The notes beneath the pieces were generated by a model. The model was not told the DNA's origin. It saw nothing but the letters and a program-made list of their open reading frames with translations, and did no database searches. The translations under genes were made by a program, and so were the position numbers. Below, piece after piece: positions 7,705 through 19,271 of a stretch of 64,000 bases of DNA (the first letter of the stretch is position 1; every line of letters begins with the position of its first letter). Location: contig NZ_JACESB010000007.1 of assembly GCF_013912005.1 (NCBI RefSeq), positions 1 to 64,000 on the forward strand. The letters run 5' to 3'. This DNA is from Brevundimonas sp. GTDB taxonomy: Bacteria > Pseudomonadota > Alphaproteobacteria > Caulobacterales > Caulobacteraceae.

Positions 7705-8506
7705 GCCGGGTGGTCCAGCCGTCGAAGCCGACCTCAACATTCGCCGGAACAATGGCTGACAACTCATTGTAATCCATGTCGAGATGGAGGTTCGTCAGCA
7801 CGGCGCGACGGACGCCGGCGCGGGCGATCCAGTCCAAGGCGCGGTCGAGGTGGGCATGGGTCGGATGCGGCGCATAGCGCAGGGCGTCGACGATCCACAG
7901 GTCGCAGCCCCGCACCGCCTCGAGCGCCGCCTCGTCGAGATCGGACACGTCGGGCGAATAGGCGACGCCGGCCAGTCGGTAGCCGACCGAGCGGATCGGG
8001 CCATGCCCCTGGTCGAAGGTGACGACCGGCACGGAGCCGCCGGGGCCGTCGACCGCCCATGGCTCGCCGTGCGGGGGCAGGCGCCGCGCCTCCAGGATGG
8101 CCGGATAGCCGTTCACGCTCTCGAAGATGTAGCCGAAGCGGCCGGTCAGGGCGGCGCGGGTGGCCCCGTCCATCCACGCCGGAATGCGCCGCCGCGCGCG
8201 CAGGGCGAAGACGCGCAGGTCGTCGATGCCGTGGGTCTGGTCGGCGTGGTCGTGGGTGTAGAGGACGGCGTCGACCGCCTCGACCCGGGCGTCCAGCATC
8301 TGCTGCCGCAGGTCGGGAGAGGTGTCGACCAGCACGGTGGTGACGCCGTCGGGGCCGTGGCGACGCATCAGCAGCGAGCAGCGCAGGCGGCGGTTCCTCG
8401 GCTCGGCGGGATCGCACGCGCCCCAGTCGCCGTCGCCGCGCGGCACGCCGCCGGACGAGCCGCTGCCGAGGATCACCACCTCCAGATCGCCCGCCGGCCC
8501 GCTCAT
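7691..8506 (-). CDS. MBL-fold metallo-hydrolase (PhnP-like)
   Basis: Protein of 271 residues with a beta-lactamase fold of the PhnP / phosphodiesterase type. GSGSSGGVPR opens the fold near residue 14, and YTHDHADQTHGIDDLR carries the HxHxDH metal motif. A last His lies in NLHLDMDY. The start ATG at 8506 overlaps the tatD stop (ATGA), so it is translationally coupled to tatD; this tatD-MBL pairing is common in alphaproteobacteria. The likely substrate is a cyclic phosphodiester or nucleotide, unproven. Its 3' end overlaps the permease by 14 bases. Confidence 0.9.
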   Translation of the reverse strand: MSGPAGDLEVVILGSGSSGGVPRGDGDWGACDPAEPRNRRLRCSLLMRRHGPDGVTTVLVDTSPDLRQQMLDARVEAVDAVLYTHDHADQTHGIDDLRVFALRARRRIPAWMDGATRAALTGRFGYIFESVNGYPAILEARRLPPHGEPWAVDGPGGSVPVVTFDQGHGPIRSVGYRLAGVAYSPDVSDLDEAALEAVRGCDLWIVDALRYAPHPTHAHLDRALDWIARAGVRRAVLTNLHLDMDYNELSAIVPANVEVGFDGWTTRLSLA

Positions 8507-9291
8507 GCGTCGGCCGGTCGGGGAATGCAGTCGAACAGGCGGAAAAAGGCGTCGGTGGTGCGCGCCTCGGCCTCCTCCCGGGTCCAGCCGCGGATCTCCG
8601 CCAGCTTGTCGAGCACATGGCCGACGAAGGCCGGCTCGTTCCTTCGTCCGCGGTGCGGGACCGGGGCGAGGTAGGGGCAGTCGGTCTCGACGATGATGCG
8701 GTCGGCGGGCATGGCGCGGATCACCTCGCGCACCTCTTCGGCGGCCTTGAAGGTGGCGATGCCGGAAACGGAGAACCACGCGCCGAGTTCCGCCGCCCTT
8801 TCAGCCAGTTCCGGACCGGAGGTGTAGCAGTGCATCAGGAAGCGGAAGCCGCCGCGGGCCTGTTCCTCGGCGAGGATGTCGGCCATGACCGCGTCCGCCT
8901 CGCGGGTGTGGACGACCAGCGGCAGGCCGGTGCGGCGGGCGGCCTCGACGTGCTGGCGGAACACCTGCGCCTGCACCTCGCGCGGGCTGAGGTCGTAGTG
9001 GAAGTCGAGGCCGCACTCGCCGATCCCGACGACCTTCGGCCGGGCGGCGAGTTCGACCAGGCGGTCATCGTCGAGGTCGGCGTAGTGGCGCGCCTCGTGC
9101 GGATGCACCCCGACGGTGCACCAGATGTCCGCGTGGGCCATGGCCAGGCCGTGGGTCGCCTCGAAGGTCGCCAGCCGGTCCGAGATCTCGACCATCAGGC
9201 CGACGCCCGCCTGCCGCGCCCGGGCGATCACCGCGTCGCGATCCTCGTCGAACTGGGGCGCGTGCAGGTTGACGTGGCTGTCGATGATCAT
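8503..9291 (-). CDS. tatD: TatD family metal-dependent hydrolase
   Basis: TIM-barrel metal hydrolase of 262 residues; relatives are DNases/exonucleases in repair and quality control. The metal ligands expected for the family are visible in GIGECGLDFHYD (Glu), VVHTREAD (His), FLMHCYTS (His) and IVETDCPYLAP (Asp). The N-terminal motif, normally D-S/T-H-C-H-L, reads DSHVNLH, so the second His of HxH is Asn8. The ATG at 9291 overlaps the holB stop as ATGA. It belongs to the tmk-holB-tatD-MBL run, where the four genes overlap at every junction. Confidence 0.93.
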   Translation of the reverse strand: MIIDSHVNLHAPQFDEDRDAVIARARQAGVGLMVEISDRLATFEATHGLAMAHADIWCTVGVHPHEARHYADLDDDRLVELAARPKVVGIGECGLDFHYDLSPREVQAQVFRQHVEAARRTGLPLVVHTREADAVMADILAEEQARGGFRFLMHCYTSGPELAERAAELGAWFSVSGIATFKAAEEVREVIRAMPADRIIVETDCPYLAPVPHRGRRNEPAFVGHVLDKLAEIRGWTREEAEARTTDAFFRLFDCIPRPADA

Positions 9292-11980: not shown

Positions 11981-12067
<87 letters not shown>

Positions 12068-12150
12068 CCGGTCTCCGACATTCTCCGCATCCGCCGTCGG
12101 ACAACGGTCGAGGCGGCGCCGGCGGATGGCCGCGACCGCCTCATCGACCC

Positions 12151-13799: not shown

Positions 13800-14963
13800 T
13801 CAGCTGCGAATGAAGTGGGGCACGAAGCGCGAGGTGTTGCGGGTGATCCGGCCGGCGTCCTCCCTCAAGGCGATGCCCGCGGGCTCGTCGCCCACGACCC
13901 AGGAGCCCACGATGACGTGCTGGCCGTCAAACCGCGGCGGGGCGTGGACCGCCTGACGGATGTGGCTGCCGCCGCCGTAGCCCGCGTCCTCGCCCTCTTC
14001 CGTGGCGTCGCCCTCGCGGATCGAGATGTTCGCCCCCTCGCGGGAGAACAGCGGCTTGCGCACATAGTCGGCGCCCAGGGCGGCATGCCCGGGGTCGCTC
14101 TCGAACCAGGACTCCAGCAGGTTGGGGTGGCCCGCGTGCCGCTCCCAGAGCAGGGGCAGGACGCCCTTGTTCGACAGCAGCGCCTTCCAGGCCGGCTCCA
14201 TAACAGTGACCTGGGCGTTCGGCAGCGGCTCGGCGTAGTCGTCGCGCAGCATCTGCTCCCAAGGATAGAGCTTGAACATGGCCTGGATCAGCCAGTTCTC
14301 GTCGTCGACGAACCGGCCGTCGGCGTTCAGGCCGATCTGGTCGATGGCGACGAACTTCGGGTCCAGCCCGGCCTGGCGGGCCAGATCCTCGAGGAACCGC
14401 ACCGTCTGGCGATCCTCGACGAAATCGGCGTCGGAGCTGAAATGCACGAAGCCGCCGTCCGGGAAGATGGCGCGGAAGCGGTCGACCAGCTTTTCGTGCA
14501 GGCTGTTGAACTGGTCCGCATCGGCCGGCAGCGTCCCGTCGGCCATCCGGTCTTCCAGCCACAGCCACTGGAACACCGCCGTCTCGAAGATGCTGGTGGG
14601 GGTGTCGGCGTTGTACTCGTACAACTTCGCCGGGCCGCGCCCGTCGTAGGCGAAGTCGAACCGGCCGTAGAGGGACGGGTCGCCCCGGCTCCAGCTTTCG
14701 GCGACATAGTCGCGCGACGCCTCGGGGATCTCCAGCAGGGCCATCAGCCGCTCGGACTTCACCGCATCGGCGACGAGGTCCAGGCACATCTGGTGCAGCT
14801 CGGCCGTCGGCGCCTCCAGCCCGTCCTCGATCTCCTCGAGCGTGAAGGCGTAGGCGGCGCTTTCGTCCCAGTAGCGTTCGCCGGAGTCGTGGTGCCAGGT
14901 GAAGCCCACGGCCTCCGCGCGCGCCTGCCAGTCGGGCCGGGGGTCGAGCTTCAACCTTTCCAT
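13800..14963 (-). CDS. yjfC: glutathionylspermidine synthase-like ATP-grasp protein (YjfC/YgiC family)
   Basis: A 387-residue protein with the ATP-grasp domain of glutathionylspermidine synthase, without the amidase half. Recognisable blocks are YGRFDFAYDG, KLYEYNADTPTSIFETA, HFSSDADFVEDRQT, MEPAWKALLSNKGVLPLLW, VRKPLFSREGANI and VGSWVVGDEPAGI near the C terminus. Such stand-alone homologues are thought to ligate a peptide or polyamine in an ATP-dependent reaction; E. coli YjfC and YgiC have no firm activity. Last gene of the minus-strand arm, four bases after the PspA homologue. In E. coli the same family closes the yjfIJKLMC cluster. Confidence 0.93.
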   Translation of the reverse strand: MERLKLDPRPDWQARAEAVGFTWHHDSGERYWDESAAYAFTLEEIEDGLEAPTAELHQMCLDLVADAVKSERLMALLEIPEASRDYVAESWSRGDPSLYGRFDFAYDGRGPAKLYEYNADTPTSIFETAVFQWLWLEDRMADGTLPADADQFNSLHEKLVDRFRAIFPDGGFVHFSSDADFVEDRQTVRFLEDLARQAGLDPKFVAIDQIGLNADGRFVDDENWLIQAMFKLYPWEQMLRDDYAEPLPNAQVTVMEPAWKALLSNKGVLPLLWERHAGHPNLLESWFESDPGHAALGADYVRKPLFSREGANISIREGDATEEGEDAGYGGGSHIRQAVHAPPRFDGQHVIVGSWVVGDEPAGIALREDAGRITRNTSRFVPHFIRS

Positions 14964-14967
14964 GCGT

Positions 14968-15711
14968 CTAGGCCGGGTCCTTCGAGGCCGGGACCGAGGT
15001 CCCGATCTGCGGCGTCACCACCCGGACCTCCTGCGCCGTCAGACGCGCCAGCACGTCGTCGGCCGAGGCGTGGCCCGGCAGGATGCCGGCTTCCTTCAGC
15101 TTGGCGTCCAGATCGGCCCCGGTGCGCTTGTCCTCAAGCTCCTGGCCGGCGCGCAGCCGCTCCTCCTGAACCGCCTGGCGCTGCTTGATGCGCTGCAGGC
15201 TGTCGGCGGCCGAGCCGATGCGCGAATGCGCGCCGGCCGACTGCAGGGCCACGGAGGTCTGGGCCTTCTGCACCGAGTCATTGACCTTCACGATGTCGAT
15301 CTCGCGCCGCAGCGTCTCGATCTTCTGGTCGGTGGCGGCGATGGCGGTGCGCAGGCGGGCCTCGGCCTCCTTCATGCTCTCGATCAGGGGACCCCGCGTG
15401 CCGATCTCGGTCTCCAGCTCGGCGATCCGCTGCGCCACCTCCCGGGCCAGGTCGGTCTTGCCCTGGGCCAGGGCGGTGCGGGCGGAGCTCTCGTACTTGG
15501 CGATCTGGTCGCCGAAGCTCTTGATCTCGTTCTCGGCCATGCGCCGGCGGGCCACCAGGCCGGCGAGGTCGTCGCGCGCCTTGCCCTGGGCGTTGTCGGC
15601 GTCGCGGATCTCCTGGTCGAGGATCTTCAGCGCATTGGCGTCGACCACCGCCTGACCGGCCTCGTGGGCCGTGCCGCGAAACAAGGCCGAGAGCTTTGCG
15701 AGCATGGACAT
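14968..15711 (-). CDS. yjfJ: PspA/IM30 family protein (YjfJ-like)
   Basis: A 247-residue ESCRT-III-related membrane-remodelling protein. It is almost all helical: a short N-terminal amphipathic segment (LAKLSALFRGTAHEA), then coiled-coil from about 25 to 190, then a flexible tail. Unlike classic PspA it carries extra sequence after residue 200 (LKEAGILPGHASADDVLARL). No pspF or pspB/C is nearby. Its partners here are the DUF2170 gene upstream and the ATP-grasp gene downstream, exactly the yjfI-yjfJ-yjfC partners of E. coli. Probable role: binding stressed inner membrane. Confidence 0.93.
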   Translation of the reverse strand: MSMLAKLSALFRGTAHEAGQAVVDANALKILDQEIRDADNAQGKARDDLAGLVARRRMAENEIKSFGDQIAKYESSARTALAQGKTDLAREVAQRIAELETEIGTRGPLIESMKEAEARLRTAIAATDQKIETLRREIDIVKVNDSVQKAQTSVALQSAGAHSRIGSAADSLQRIKQRQAVQEERLRAGQELEDKRTGADLDAKLKEAGILPGHASADDVLARLTAQEVRVVTPQIGTSVPASKDPA

Positions 15712-15728
15712 GGTTCGTCTCCGTCGGA

Positions 15729-16409
15729 TCAGGCGGCTTCGGCGCCGAAGGTTTCACGCAGGCTGCTGGCGTCGATGGCGTTCTCCGCCAGGGTGCGCAG
15801 CTCGATCAATATGGTCTGCAGCGTCGTCTTGCACGACAGCTCGCCCATCAGTTCATAGACGTCCTCGCCGGAGACGGTGGTGATGGCGAAGTTCGACAGC
15901 GGCACCACCCGCTGGGCCTTCAGCAGGAACTCGTTGAAGCGCGCTGCGTCCTTCTGCTCCGCCACGGGCCAGAGCAGGACCGAGGCCACGATCTGGGAGC
16001 CGCCGACGCTCAGATAGATCGGCAGGTCGCCGTATTCGTGCATGGTCGCCAGCAGGACAGGGTCGGCCCCCTCGAGCACGCGCAGGGTCATTTCGCCCTC
16101 GCGGACGAGTTCCGACGCCTCAAGCGCGGCCTTGATGGCGGGCACGGTCCAGGCGGTTTCGATCACGGCGTCCATGGGATGTCTCACTCCAGAAGGATCG
16201 TTCAGGGGGTTGCGGCGCCCCCGCCGGGCAGGGACGGGACCGCGGGTGGACTCGGTGACGATGGCGTGGACCGCCGCCCTCACATCGTCCCGCGTCGAGT
16301 GGGGGATCCAGAATTCCACCTTGATCATGCCGGCGTCGCGCCGGGCTTGCCGCCAAGCACGTATACGATCGTTCGCCGACGGCAAGGGATTTGAGGCGGG
16401 GTTACGCAT
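15729..16409 (-). CDS. yjfI: YjfI family protein (DUF2170) with N-terminal extension
   Basis: The C-terminal about 148 residues (from the Met codon at 16175) are a DUF2170/YjfI domain, with MTLRVLEGADPVLLATMHEYGDLPIYLS and GEDVYELMGELS. The frame stays open upstream to the ATG at 16409, giving 226 residues. The added N terminus (RIRAWRQARRDAGMIK, then VEFWIPHSTRDDVRAAV) resembles short basic helix-turn or ribbon-helix-helix antitoxin-like peptides. I chose the long form because a dyad and the divergent promoter space sit right at 16401-16428, which would leave a 230-base leader for the short form. E. coli YjfI corresponds to the short form. First gene of the minus arm. Confidence 0.7.
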   Translation of the reverse strand: MRNPASNPLPSANDRIRAWRQARRDAGMIKVEFWIPHSTRDDVRAAVHAIVTESTRGPVPARRGRRNPLNDPSGVRHPMDAVIETAWTVPAIKAALEASELVREGEMTLRVLEGADPVLLATMHEYGDLPIYLSVGGSQIVASVLLWPVAEQKDAARFNEFLLKAQRVVPLSNFAITTVSGEDVYELMGELSCKTTLQTILIELRTLAENAIDASSLRETFGAEAA

Positions 16410-16428
16410 GTTTCATGTAACGCGTAAC
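16401..16428. promoter_or_regulatory. dyad at the yjf divergent promoter
   Basis: The sequence holds GTTAC-GC-ATG-TTT-CAT-GTAAC, an interrupted dyad, followed by CG and another GTAAC, so GTTACGC (16401-16407) also pairs with GCGTAAC (16422-16428). It overlaps the long-form yjfI start and lies about 80 bases upstream of the K+ channel gene. A 10-base piece, GCATGTTTCA (16406-16415), recurs at 21353-21362 upstream of the TrpR-like gene. An operator role is inference. Confidence 0.45.
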
Positions 16429-16506
16429 AGGAACGGTTGACATCGGCTAGGTGTCTGCGATGTCTGGTCGCCGCCCCGGGGCTGGCCCGGGTCCTTGCGA
16501 GACGAC

Positions 16507-17550
16507 ATGCTGCTGCCGCGAATGAAGCTCGCGCGCCTGTTCGACCGGGCGTTCCACGCCATGGCGGACCTGCACTGGACCCTGCTGTTCGCCCTGATCC
16601 TTGTCCACGCCCTTCTGACCTGGGGCCTGATGGGGCTGGCCGGCGAGGCGGGCCTGACGCCGCCGGCCACCTTCTTCTACTGGTACGCCACCACCGCCTA
16701 CACCGTGGGCTATGGCGACCTCAGCCCGCAGACTGACGCGGGGCGGCTGATCACGGCCTTGTGGGTCTTCCCCGGGGCCATCGCCGCCTTCACCACCATC
16801 GTCGCCAAGGTCCTGGCCGCCATCGGCGAGGTCTGGCGCGTGCGCCGCTCCGGCAAGGGAGACTATTCCAGCATGACCGCCTCGATCGTCCTGATCGGCT
16901 ACCACCCCGCCCGCACCGCCAAGATGGTGGACGAACTGTGCGCCGACCTCGCCCGGGACCAGACGCTGGTGCTGCTCACCCGGCAGACGATCGCGGATCC
17001 GGATCCGCGCATCCGCTATGTGCAGTCCGAGACCCTGACCTCCACCGCGGCCCTGACCCGGGCGGGCGTGCCCGAGGCCAGCCGCGTGCTGATCTTCACC
17101 GATTCCGACGCCGACACCCTGGCCGCCACCCTGGCCGCCGCCGCCCTCGCGCCGCCCGACGCGCACCTGGTCTGCTATTTCGAGGACCAGGACCACGCCC
17201 GGCTGATCGACCAGCACTGTCCGGAGGTCGAGGTCATCCTGTCGGCGGGGCCGGAGCTCGTCGCCCGGGCCTGCAAGGATCCGGGCGCCAGCCAGGTCAT
17301 CAGCACCCTGACCAGCCACCTGGACGATCACGCGACCCTGTTCAGCCTGACCTGGCCCGACCGCCCCCCGCGGGACTTCGGCGATCTCGCCCGCGACCTG
17401 CGCGAGCGCGGCGCGACCCTGCTGGCGATCCAGCCGGCGCGGGAGACGGCGCCGAGGTTCAATCCGGCCATGGACCGCCCGGTCGGCCGCGGCGACCGCC
17501 TGTTCTACGTCGCGGCGTCCCGACTCGATGCCGCCGCGCTGGCGGGGTAG
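16507..17550 (+). CDS. potassium channel family protein with RCK-like C-terminal domain
   Basis: A 347-residue two-helix K+ channel. TM1 is about 24-46, the pore loop ends in the selectivity filter TVGYGD (66-71), and TM2 is about 82-106. From residue 124 (SIVLIGYHPARTAKMVDEL) a TrkA-N/RCK-like Rossmann domain follows, with a degenerate nucleotide loop (GYHPAR instead of GxGxxG), then ESRV-type and LISAGPELVAR-type repeats. The ATG at 16507 is preferred; a TTG at 16495 and an ATG at 16522 are also in frame. It starts the plus arm of the yjf-like module, ten bases before the DUF2491 gene, so it is probably co-transcribed with it. Confidence 0.9.
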   Translation: MLLPRMKLARLFDRAFHAMADLHWTLLFALILVHALLTWGLMGLAGEAGLTPPATFFYWYATTAYTVGYGDLSPQTDAGRLITALWVFPGAIAAFTTIVAKVLAAIGEVWRVRRSGKGDYSSMTASIVLIGYHPARTAKMVDELCADLARDQTLVLLTRQTIADPDPRIRYVQSETLTSTAALTRAGVPEASRVLIFTDSDADTLAATLAAAALAPPDAHLVCYFEDQDHARLIDQHCPEVEVILSAGPELVARACKDPGASQVISTLTSHLDDHATLFSLTWPDRPPRDFGDLARDLRERGATLLAIQPARETAPRFNPAMDRPVGRGDRLFYVAASRLDAAALAG

Positions 17551-17559
17551 GCTCGCGGC

Positions 17560-18207
17560 ATGTTCAAACGCCTGTTCGGCTCCGGCGATAAGCCCGCCCC
17601 CGCCCCGGGTCTGGCGGAGGTGCGCAACATCACCGTCGGCCGCACCGTCTCGCTGGATCCGCTGGCCTGGCGCCGGCTGGGCGACGAGACCCGCTTCACC
17701 CTCGACCGCGACGCCCTGGAGATCACGGCCCAGGGCGTGATCACCCTCGACGGCGGCCAGTTCGTGCATCGCTTCTACACCGACGACCACGTGATGCTTC
17801 AGGCCATGAGCGACGATCCCGAGGGTCGGGCCGCCTATGACTTCACCCTGTTCACCCCGTGGTCGTCCGCCTATCCGCCAGGCGAGCGCGAGCGCCGGCT
17901 GTGGGCGGACCGGCTGTCCGAGCCGGTCTTCCACGGCGCCGCCGAGGACCTGCCCGACTTCCCCCGCCTTTGGTTCGCCGAGAGCGACGCACGCCAGCCG
18001 CCGGTGACCCTGTGGGAAACGATCTATGACGACCGGGCGGCGACAACGCCCTATGCGCGCATATTCCAGACGTGCATGTTGTACGCGCGCGACCTCGCCG
18101 GCGGACGCGAGTTGATGCTGGCCCTCGAGATGCAGCCGGACGGGGGCGAGACCACGCACGAAATCATGATCGGCATTCCGCTGGAGATGGCCGAGTTCCG
18201 CGCCTAG
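17560..18207 (+). CDS. yjfK: DUF2491 family protein (YjfK-like)
   Basis: Soluble protein of 215 residues matching YjfK/DUF2491. Conserved-looking blocks are VRNITVGRTVSLDPLAW, ITAQGVITLDGGQFVHRFYTDDHVMLQ and WETIYDDRAATTPYARIF, with a C-terminal EIMIGIPLEMAEF. No signal peptide or membrane helix. It is nine bases downstream of the channel and 24 bases upstream of the DUF350 gene. No biochemical function is known; its constant partners are a PspA homologue and a DUF350 membrane protein. Confidence 0.9.
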   Translation: MFKRLFGSGDKPAPAPGLAEVRNITVGRTVSLDPLAWRRLGDETRFTLDRDALEITAQGVITLDGGQFVHRFYTDDHVMLQAMSDDPEGRAAYDFTLFTPWSSAYPPGERERRLWADRLSEPVFHGAAEDLPDFPRLWFAESDARQPPVTLWETIYDDRAATTPYARIFQTCMLYARDLAGGRELMLALEMQPDGGETTHEIMIGIPLEMAEFRA

Positions 18208-18231
18208 GCGCACACCGAGGGGAAGCTGCAC

Positions 18232-18642
18232 ATGGACTGGTTCGCGTTTCAGACCGGGGCGACGGCCTTCATCATCGCCTTCGTGGCGGCGGTGCTGTTC
18301 TTCGTCGCCTTCAAATTCATCTATCAGATGGTCACGCCCTACCATGAGCGCACCCTGATCCGGGAAGGCAACACGGCCGCCGCCGTGGCCCTCGGCGGCG
18401 CCCTGATCGGCTACGTCCTGCCGCTGGCCTCGGCCCTGTCGCACACCGTCAGCCTGCCCGAGTTCGCGGCCTGGGCGCTGCTGGCCGGCGTCATCCAGAT
18501 CGTCTCCTTCATCGTCGTCAGCCGGCTGGTCTACCGGGCGCTGGCCTCGCGGATCGAGGCGGGCGAGCTGGCGGCCGGCGTCTATATCGCCTCCATCTCC
18601 ATCGGCGTGGGCCTGCTCAACGCCGCCTGCATGACGGCGTGA
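18232..18642 (+). CDS. yjfL: DUF350 family membrane protein (YjfL-like)
   Basis: A 136-residue inner-membrane protein with four predicted helices (about 8-30, 48-70, 78-98, 113-133). The loop after helix 1 carries YHERTLIREGNTAAAVALGG, a signature of DUF350, where E-GN-A-A is conserved across the family. GGGGAAG precedes the ATG. The stop overlaps the start of the DUF1190 gene (GTGA). Role unknown; families of this size are candidates for small channels or membrane sensors partnering PspA. Confidence 0.92.
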   Translation: MDWFAFQTGATAFIIAFVAAVLFFVAFKFIYQMVTPYHERTLIREGNTAAAVALGGALIGYVLPLASALSHTVSLPEFAAWALLAGVIQIVSFIVVSRLVYRALASRIEAGELAAGVYIASISIGVGLLNAACMTA

Positions 18643-19271
18643 GCGGCATGACCCAGGACACTCCCGCCGCCCTGCCCGAGACCACCACCCTTCGCCGGCT
18701 CAAGCGATCGCGGTCGCTGCAGGTCACCAGCCTGATGGCCACGGTCGGCTTTTCGCTGTCGGCCTGCGGGTCGCCGCAATCGGTTCCCGCGCCCGAGCCG
18801 GCGGAGCCGGCCCTGGCCTACACCTCGATCGACGACTGCAAGACCGCCGACGTCGTCCCCGATGCGGAGTGCGAGACCGCCTACGCCGCGGCCCAGGCCG
18901 AGGCCGAGCAAACCGCGCCGCGCTACGCCACCCGGGCCGAGTGCGAGGGCCAGTGGGGGCCGGAGCAGTGCCGGCCGCTGAACACCGGCGGCGGCTCCTT
19001 CTTCGGCCCGCTCGCCACCGGCTTCATCATCGGCCAGATGATGAACGGCGGCTACCGCGGCGGCGGACCGCTGTACCGCGACCGCGAGGGCCAGTACTCC
19101 AACGGCTACGGCGGCGGCTACCTGTCCCGCGACTACCGGACCGGCCGGACCGTCACCAACGCGCGTGAGCACACGCCGGTGGCCCGCCAGGCGCCGACCC
19201 GGGTGCAGAGCCGCACCGCGGTGGTGTCCCGCGGCGGATTCGGAGGCGGCGGACGAGGCTACGGCGGCTGA
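18639..19271 (+). CDS. yjfM: DUF1190 family lipoprotein-like protein (YjfM-like)
   Basis: A 210-residue protein of the DUF1190 family. It opens with a basic segment (LKRSRSLQVTSLM) and a hydrophobic stretch ending LSACG, which could be a lipobox (Cys46) or a membrane anchor. Cys-rich repeats follow (SIDDCKTADVVPDAECETAYA, TRAECEGQWGPEQCRP), then a Gly-rich tail. The GTG at 18639 overlaps the DUF350 stop; an ATG at 18648 is the alternative. Last gene of the plus arm; a weak GGGGC-TTCTTCCC-GCCCC hairpin follows. Confidence 0.88.
   Translation: MSGMTQDTPAALPETTTLRRLKRSRSLQVTSLMATVGFSLSACGSPQSVPAPEPAEPALAYTSIDDCKTADVVPDAECETAYAAAQAEAEQTAPRYATRAECEGQWGPEQCRPLNTGGGSFFGPLATGFIIGQMMNGGYRGGGPLYRDREGQYSNGYGGGYLSRDYRTGRTVTNAREHTPVARQAPTRVQSRTAVVSRGGFGGGGRGYGG

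Follow-up and report, generated by a model that had tools for sequence, protein, structure and literature searches.

Gene content of the locus

We analysed the first 64,000 nucleotides of the Brevundimonas sp. contig NZ_JACESB010000007.1 (assembly GCF_013912005.1; hereafter the window), in which positions 13800..19271 hold a yjf-type envelope module. Sequence comparisons suggest that the neighbouring ATP-grasp ligase YjfC, a polyamine-attaching enzyme, probably has its missing target in the C-terminal tail of one of the module's products, the small lipoprotein-like YjfM. The module consists of the complete set of six yjf genes in two divergent arms around a potassium channel, as the original prediction had described. 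All seven reading frames were verified at the positions given there, and the proposed gene identities were borne out by Pfam matches, the six non-channel genes scoring well over the curated cut-offs.

On the minus strand, yjfC (13800..14963) encodes a 387-aa ATP-grasp enzyme of the YgiC/YjfC-type peptide-polyamine ligases, without an amidase domain (GSP_synth, 486.6 bits, residues 12-385), yjfJ (14968..15711) encodes a PspA/IM30 family protein (PspA_IM30, 166.5 bits), and yjfI (15729..16409) encodes a DUF2170 protein (156.3 bits at residues 86-217) with a BacA-like type III secretion system (T3SS)-chaperone fold, preceded by an additional domain of about 55 aa at the N-terminus and then a flexible linker. 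On the plus strand, the gene for a two-helix K+ channel with a degenerate RCK-like domain (16507..17550; frame open from TTG 16495) ends nine bases before yjfK (17560..18207), which encodes a DUF2491 protein (188 bits, the sole match in its own genome). It is followed by yjfL (18232..18642), encoding a DUF350 membrane protein (123.1 bits), and yjfM (18639..19271), encoding a 210-aa DUF1190 protein with a lipobox cysteine, Cys43 (125.8 bits). The C-terminal tail of the latter, RGGFGGGGRGYGG (19230..19268, plus strand), is the proposed YjfC substrate. Between the two arms lies an operator-like block of 28 bases (16414..16441, assigned to neither strand), with GTAAC repeats seven bases apart and TTGAC at its end. 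A tRNA-Ser (TGA) gene is located upstream of the region, at window positions 11981-12069.

In E. coli K-12, the genes yjfI-J-K-L-M-C all run in one direction with no channel among them, in agreement with the comparison made in the original prediction. The gene set, channel included, is already known, since the accessible part of Ravi et al. (2024, PMC11237479) describes an operon of CesT/Tir-like DUF2170, PspA and a glutathionylspermidine-synthetase-like ATP-grasp protein that also has a potassium channel, DUF350, DUF1190 and DUF2491. The window shares all seven families with this CesT/Tir-PspA operon and has each feature checked for this group, the third of that paper, namely the DUF2170-PspA dyad, the GSP_synth-type ATP-grasp protein, DUF350, DUF1190, DUF2491 and the potassium channel. 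Unlike the operon as presented in that part of the paper, however, the window is split into two divergent arms that share a block, and its DUF2170 protein has an additional domain at the N-terminus; the same part of the text leaves the tail unmentioned and names no substrate. In heat-evolved E. coli, yjfIJKL are strongly raised, according to the accessible portion of PMC12492005.

Distribution and layout of the cluster

DUF2491 was detected in 12 of the 385 genomes sampled from the class, in 56 of 121 from the genus and in 29 of 398 from the phylum, counting the window's own genome. We examined 80 loci around DUF2491 matches and ten further genus loci; as the clusters were found via DUF2491, losses of the whole cluster are not counted. 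All six non-channel genes were present in 54 of the 56 genus loci with DUF2491, the window among them, and contig ends truncate the two incomplete loci (L156 and L159). The 54 complete clusters all had the same divergent two-arm layout as the window. Outside the genus, 23 of 35 DUF2491 loci were complete, and the DUF2170-PspA pair was divergent from DUF2491 in 8 of these 23 clusters, the remainder being collinear. This recurrence of the six genes within and outside the genus excludes a chance grouping. A DUF2491-like domain (67-85 bits) was also observed in large open frames of 538-849 codons, followed by DUF350, in other alphaproteobacterial families (L048, L051 and L053-L056), which represent a different system.

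A conserved C-terminal tail on DUF1190 proteins

YjfM terminates in RGGFG(n)GG, and its Cys43 and four other cysteines are invariant among 28 aligned sequences. Terminal GG was found in 104 of the 116 DUF1190 proteins whose locus also contains a ligase, including E. coli YjfM and YgiB, the neighbours of the two E. coli ligases. When the last 25 residues were shuffled in 2000 trials, the 30 representatives of 50% identity clusters ended in GG 1.97 times on average and at most 7 times, as compared with 24 in the real sequences, and no position other than the terminus exceeded 7 in GG count. The spacer from RGGFG to the protein end varied widely.

Nine further DUF1190 proteins, outside the 116, had no ligase in the stretch examined. 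Three of them came from loci that were cut or were without the remaining genes, two ending in GG (L156 and L159) and one in AS (L049), and the six others, remote DUF1190 matches (L145-L150), had neither RGGFG nor terminal GG. By contrast with the full cluster, the YgiB-YgiC pairs (L108-L121) gave no PspA, DUF2170, DUF350, DUF2491 or channel by profiles; RGGFG and terminal GG were present in 14 of these 14 pairs.

The ligase gene precedes the gene for the tailed protein in six loci (L123, L124, L126, L128, L129 and L170), where RGGFG occurs in five (TGGFG in L126) and terminal GG also in five (GT in L128). The DNA of the window's own genome gave 19 matches to RGG[FY]G or SGG[FY]G and 43 to a control pattern. 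After filtering for long frames with a stop within 40 residues of the motif, the only other candidate for a tailed protein was antisense to a longer gene-like open frame, and was rejected.

The tail accompanies the ligase

Since the DUF1190 profile used for sampling includes the tail, the search was also begun from the ligase. We thus took the best 80 of 586 ligase relatives, nearly all actinobacterial by record title. With a first motif, a tailed frame was found upstream of the ligase in 68 of the 80 loci, and the 12 missed loci have RGGLG, RGGIG, RGGAG or RNGFG. The motif was widened after these misses had been viewed, and then fixed as the strict form for the background count. With this form, an upstream tailed frame was present in 74 of 80 ligase loci versus 5 of 6502 other open frames (stop-to-stop, at least 50 codons, most of them not genes). 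The last residues in the 80 loci were GG in 61, GS in 15, SS in 2, and AS and AA in one each. Profile searches of these loci found no DUF1190, PspA, DUF2170, DUF2491 or channel, and DUF350 in 15. Ten of the tailed proteins were scanned without any Pfam match above cut-off, one of them giving DUF1190 at 12.9 bits (cut-off 22). The tailed proteins may be remote homologues of DUF1190 proteins, as the two aligned with their tails removed (HHalign, 78.5% over 47 columns), and the idea that they are unrelated was dropped on this ground.

GSP_synth was present in 91 of 398 proteobacterial genomes. The test set comprised all 25 ligases of at least 430 bits without a listed DUF1190 match nearby, and the comparison set all 12 long, lower-scoring bifunctional enzymes of the glutathionylspermidine synthetase/amidase (Gss) type; one ligase at 277 bits was added. 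Two matches that were partial or sub-cut-off were excluded, as was one place already examined as L129. A loose regular expression found a frame beside 20 of the 25 ligases and 2 of the 12 Gss-type enzymes. After reading, real tails stood beside 18 of 25 and 0 of 12, respectively (Fisher p 4e-5), so that Gss-type loci, unlike most YjfC-type ones, have no tailed neighbour. Four variants recognised by eye (L288, L290, L301 and L302) bring the count beside the ligase to 22 of 25, and one tail 2.3 kb away (L282) brings it to 23. The narrower pattern R[GS]GF[GT], sought anywhere in the locus, matched 19 of 25 ligases versus 1 of 12 Gss-type enzymes, the single match (L306) being a 66-aa frame in which 38 residues follow the motif. 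With our in-house DUF1190 profile, three loci among the 25 (L292, L300 and L301) gave 14 to 21 bits. No tail was found beside L304 (277 bits).

A plasmid set of 12 records was chosen by hand among 60 listed of 156. The ligases of at least 33% identity had a tailed neighbour in 9 of 9 cases, with the variants R-Q-G-F-G, Y-G-G-F-G, S-G-G-F-G and R-G-G-F-T, and 7 of these 9 tails end in GG (GS in L162, CG in L166); reading revealed no tail beside the three remote GSP_synth homologues (L168, L172 and L173). Small tailed envelope proteins lie upstream of the ligase in Nonomuraea, Arthrobacter, Deinococcus, Tistrella and Acinetobacter (L162-L165 and L167), and of the four scanned, all but that of Nonomuraea, only the Tistrella protein had a Pfam match.

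The ligase and its polyamine donor

The nearest solved relatives of the window ligase are E. coli YjfC (7uk6) and YgiC (7uk8), nearly over the full length, and both are annotated as peptide--spermidine ligases. The original prediction that the ATP-grasp protein ligates a polyamine or a peptide fits this annotation, but it missed the likely substrate, the YjfM tail.

We aligned 47 ligases, namely the window enzyme, YgiC, and those of 27 of the 80 ligase-found loci, 12 cluster loci and 6 plasmid loci. The eight residues that we take to form the catalytic site of Gss (R316, D318, E330, N332, K498, K533, R538 and R598) were identical in all 47. At the positions that presumably line its glutathione pocket, S335 and S337 were replaced by T and T in 46 of 47 and C338 mostly by S (33 of 47); the window ligase has T, T and S. 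The enzyme thus resembles Gss in its ATP-grasp family and catalytic residues, whereas it differs in the altered pocket and in the absence of the N-terminal amidase domain. Given the altered pocket residues, glutathione is an unlikely substrate. The E. coli enzymes YjfC and YgiC are the closest in sequence, with the catalytic residues of YgiC the same and with tailed neighbours as well (YjfM and YgiB). Unlike in the window, the channel is absent from the E. coli yjf operon, and the donor in the window is probably not spermidine.

Indeed, no match to the spermidine synthase family PF01564 was found in the window's own genome, and PF03435 gave two weak matches, one of them over the cut-off. The genome encodes a deoxyhypusine-synthase-like enzyme over the NF002699 cut-off, beside a pyridoxal phosphate (PLP) decarboxylase. 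From the lack of a spermidine synthase match and the presence of this enzyme, the polyamine donor in the Brevundimonas host is more likely to be homospermidine or a relative than spermidine. The enzyme beside the decarboxylase (L256) matches 1,9-bis(guanidino)-5-aza-nonane synthase, a member of the deoxyhypusine-synthase family.

YgiC and YjfC are termed characterised peptidylpolyamine synthetases in the accessible part of PMC12568646, which cites Pederick et al. 2023. No paper with RGGFG, or naming YgiB or YjfM as a ligase substrate, was found in a search of openly available sources.

The potassium channel as an optional part

The channel protein matched Ion_trans_2 at 38.7 bits (cut-off 22.5) and TrkA_N at 23.7 bits, just below the cut-off of 23.8, and its solved relatives include MthK and KcsA. 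Its two-helix pore carries a TVGYGD filter, as in RCK-gated K+ channels, and the filter is present in 33 of 36 homologues. The channel occurred in 17 of the 54 complete genus clusters and 19 of the 23 complete clusters outside the genus. On a quick tree built from the six non-channel proteins (core tree, 59 rows), the channel appears or disappears 14 times, with 11 or more of these changes on supported branches, whereas the other six genes are retained. With shuffled labels the average was 17.0 changes, and between 36 and 42 of 500 shuffles were as low as the observed 14, which means that channel presence is barely clustered on the tree. Channel and core distances within the genus were moderately correlated (rho 0.56, 17 loci). 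In one genus member, a single stop codon before the filter interrupts the channel frame (L074:9642-10715), perhaps a channel that is being lost.

The channel is an optional, dispensable part of the module. Its frequency in the genus and its repeated gains and losses on the core tree rule out an obligate role, and a model that requires it cannot be general. The suggestion in the original prediction that the channel is a functional part therefore stands in so far as the channel is a genuine associate, being common in complete clusters outside the genus rather than absent from nearly all other clusters; it does not stand as a statement of need, because most genus clusters keep the other six genes without it.

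The shared block and YjfI

In 51 of 56 genus loci, the 28-base block occurs next to yjfI with at most 7 mismatches in 28; there was one match elsewhere in those loci, and the window copy has 2 mismatches to the consensus used. The genus loci without it are L067, L076, L099 and two cut loci. Outside the genus, 1 of the 3 loci from the same family has the block, and neither the 5 remaining loci of the class nor the 15 from other classes do. It is common to channel-bearing and channel-less clusters. The seven-base spacing of repeats, here of GTAAC, is known for some ribbon-helix-helix repressors. In L067, the yjfI frame as called (8404-8856) has no N-terminal domain, and no block match lies within the 160 bases beside it.

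In the window, 85 residues of YjfI precede DUF2170. The predicted model, with a mean predicted local distance difference test (pLDDT) score of 79.7, has two helices with an extended stretch between them (residues 11-50, blocks at pLDDT 77-85), followed by a linker at residues 58-81 under pLDDT 50. This N-terminus weakly resembles MazE-like antitoxins: of six N-termini scanned with PF11455 (cut-off 22), only that of L058 was over the cut-off (25.2 bits), the window gave 15.4 bits and two gave none. The model matched BacA (8q8o) with an E-value of 7e-12, and the solved BacA chain (146 aa) aligns only with residues 86-216 of the window protein. BacA is the DUF2170 protein of the Pseudomonas aeruginosa bac operon and has a type III chaperone fold, and a BacA mutant accumulates the other Bac proteins (PMC10948618, accessible part). 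YjfI thus shares with BacA the fold and, in the light of that text, likely negative control of its own operon; in contrast to BacA it has the extra N-terminal region, and what the same text proposes is a sigma-54 site and no BacA operator.

Because of its extra, antitoxin-like N-terminal domain, YjfI may regulate both arms, and the common operator-like block supports their co-regulation. We infer that YjfI, which combines a DNA-binding-like N-terminus with a C-terminal chaperone fold, is probably the repressor of both arms, acting from the shared block, and that it would be let go from the block once YjfJ is engaged.

Proposed modification of YjfM and alternative explanations

Gss activates the glycine carboxylate of glutathione, and a protein ending in Gly-Gly is hence a plausible substitute for glutathione. 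In the mechanism we propose, YjfC would recognise the small envelope protein YjfM via its RGGFG(n)GG tail, activate the C-terminal glycine carboxylate, and attach a polyamine there, either before the protein is exported or while it is. The inner membrane, as the site where the lipoprotein with its polyamine tail would function, would also be where YjfJ and YjfL act, and the K+ channel would be an optional attachment to this PspA/CesT-type envelope-stress module. A tail that is conserved and tied to the ligase subfamily across phyla would name both the substrate and the residue, and we consider it likely, with real room for doubt, that the joining of a polyamine to the C-terminal glycine of YjfM is the constant biochemical core of the module. 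A precedent exists in yeast, where spermidine is conjugated to SUMO that terminates in LGG-COOH (PMC12270671, accessible part). As proposed for YjfM, the polyamine there is placed on a protein C-terminal Gly-Gly, whereas the chemistry described is that of eukaryotic E1/E2 enzymes, unrelated to ATP-grasp.

Several observations weigh against this proposal. Not every tail ends in GG: 12 of the 116 DUF1190 tails and 19 of the 80 in the mostly actinobacterial set do not, and most of these end in Ser. Single linkage places 78 of the 80 tailed proteins from the ligase-found loci in one group of relatives, and because of this relatedness the tail counts are not independent. Among the 25 proteobacterial ligases, L287 and L303 have no tail within the 7 kb examined, the variant tails were accepted after the data had been seen, and the loose regular expression by itself also matched unrelated frames (L290 and L301 of the 25, L310 and L316 of the 12). 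Finally, the lipobox implies that the mature YjfM tail should lie outside the cytoplasm, and YjfC has no export signal by eye, so that ligation would have to precede export.

An alternative, which we regard as unlikely, is that the tail serves in docking or allostery, bringing in the ligase or controlling it, in which case the true substrate would be a small peptide, like those used in vitro, and YjfM a partner. The RGGFG-like motifs indeed vary less than the final residue, where Ser, Thr or Ala can occur, and the peptide--spermidine ligase activity annotated for YjfC and YgiC would suit such a role, but docking leaves unexplained why 24 of the 30 representatives end in GG despite a widely varying spacer after RGGFG. 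It is doubtful, even more than docking, that the locus is simply the published PspA-CesT-polyamine operon plus a channel, responding to membrane potential or envelope damage as in the original prediction, with the tail a low-complexity Gly/Ser-rich end without a partner. The tails are Gly/Ser rich, and the accessible part of PMC11237479 has the same gene set; however, the tail goes with the ligase subfamily rather than with the other operon genes, as in the YgiB-YgiC pairs, background frames rarely match, Gss-type loci are without it, and the channel is often absent.

The proposal that terminal GG is a nucleotide effect, its codons serving as the ribosome-binding site of the next gene, gains from the frequent adjacency or overlap of the tail and ligase genes, but is highly improbable, as GG also ends 62 of the 65 proteins without a ligase directly downstream, the window included, mostly with the codons GGCGGC. 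This comparison is possible since the divergent layout of the genus puts yjfM and yjfC on opposite arms. With the ligase directly downstream, GG was found in 40 of 49 proteins with codons similar to those of the other group, and a Shine-Dalgarno artefact was ruled out by the former group.

Implications for bacterial envelope biology

The attachment of a polyamine to YjfM may be one case of a wider process. The chances seem slightly to favour a widespread bacterial modification in which dedicated ligases of the ATP-grasp type attach a polyamine, as an amide, to the C-terminal glycine of small proteins of the envelope, guided by a portable RGGFG(n)GG tail. If so, it would be found in Proteobacteria, Actinomycetota, Deinococcota and others, E. 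coli yjfMC and ygiBC would be two instances of it, and it would be analogous to SUMO-spermidine conjugation. For the yjf module, the corrected view would be of a core of ligase and tailed protein, with the potassium channel as an option. Such a modification, if true, would add C-terminal polyamine attachment to bacterial envelope biology and would give the DUF1190 family a function.

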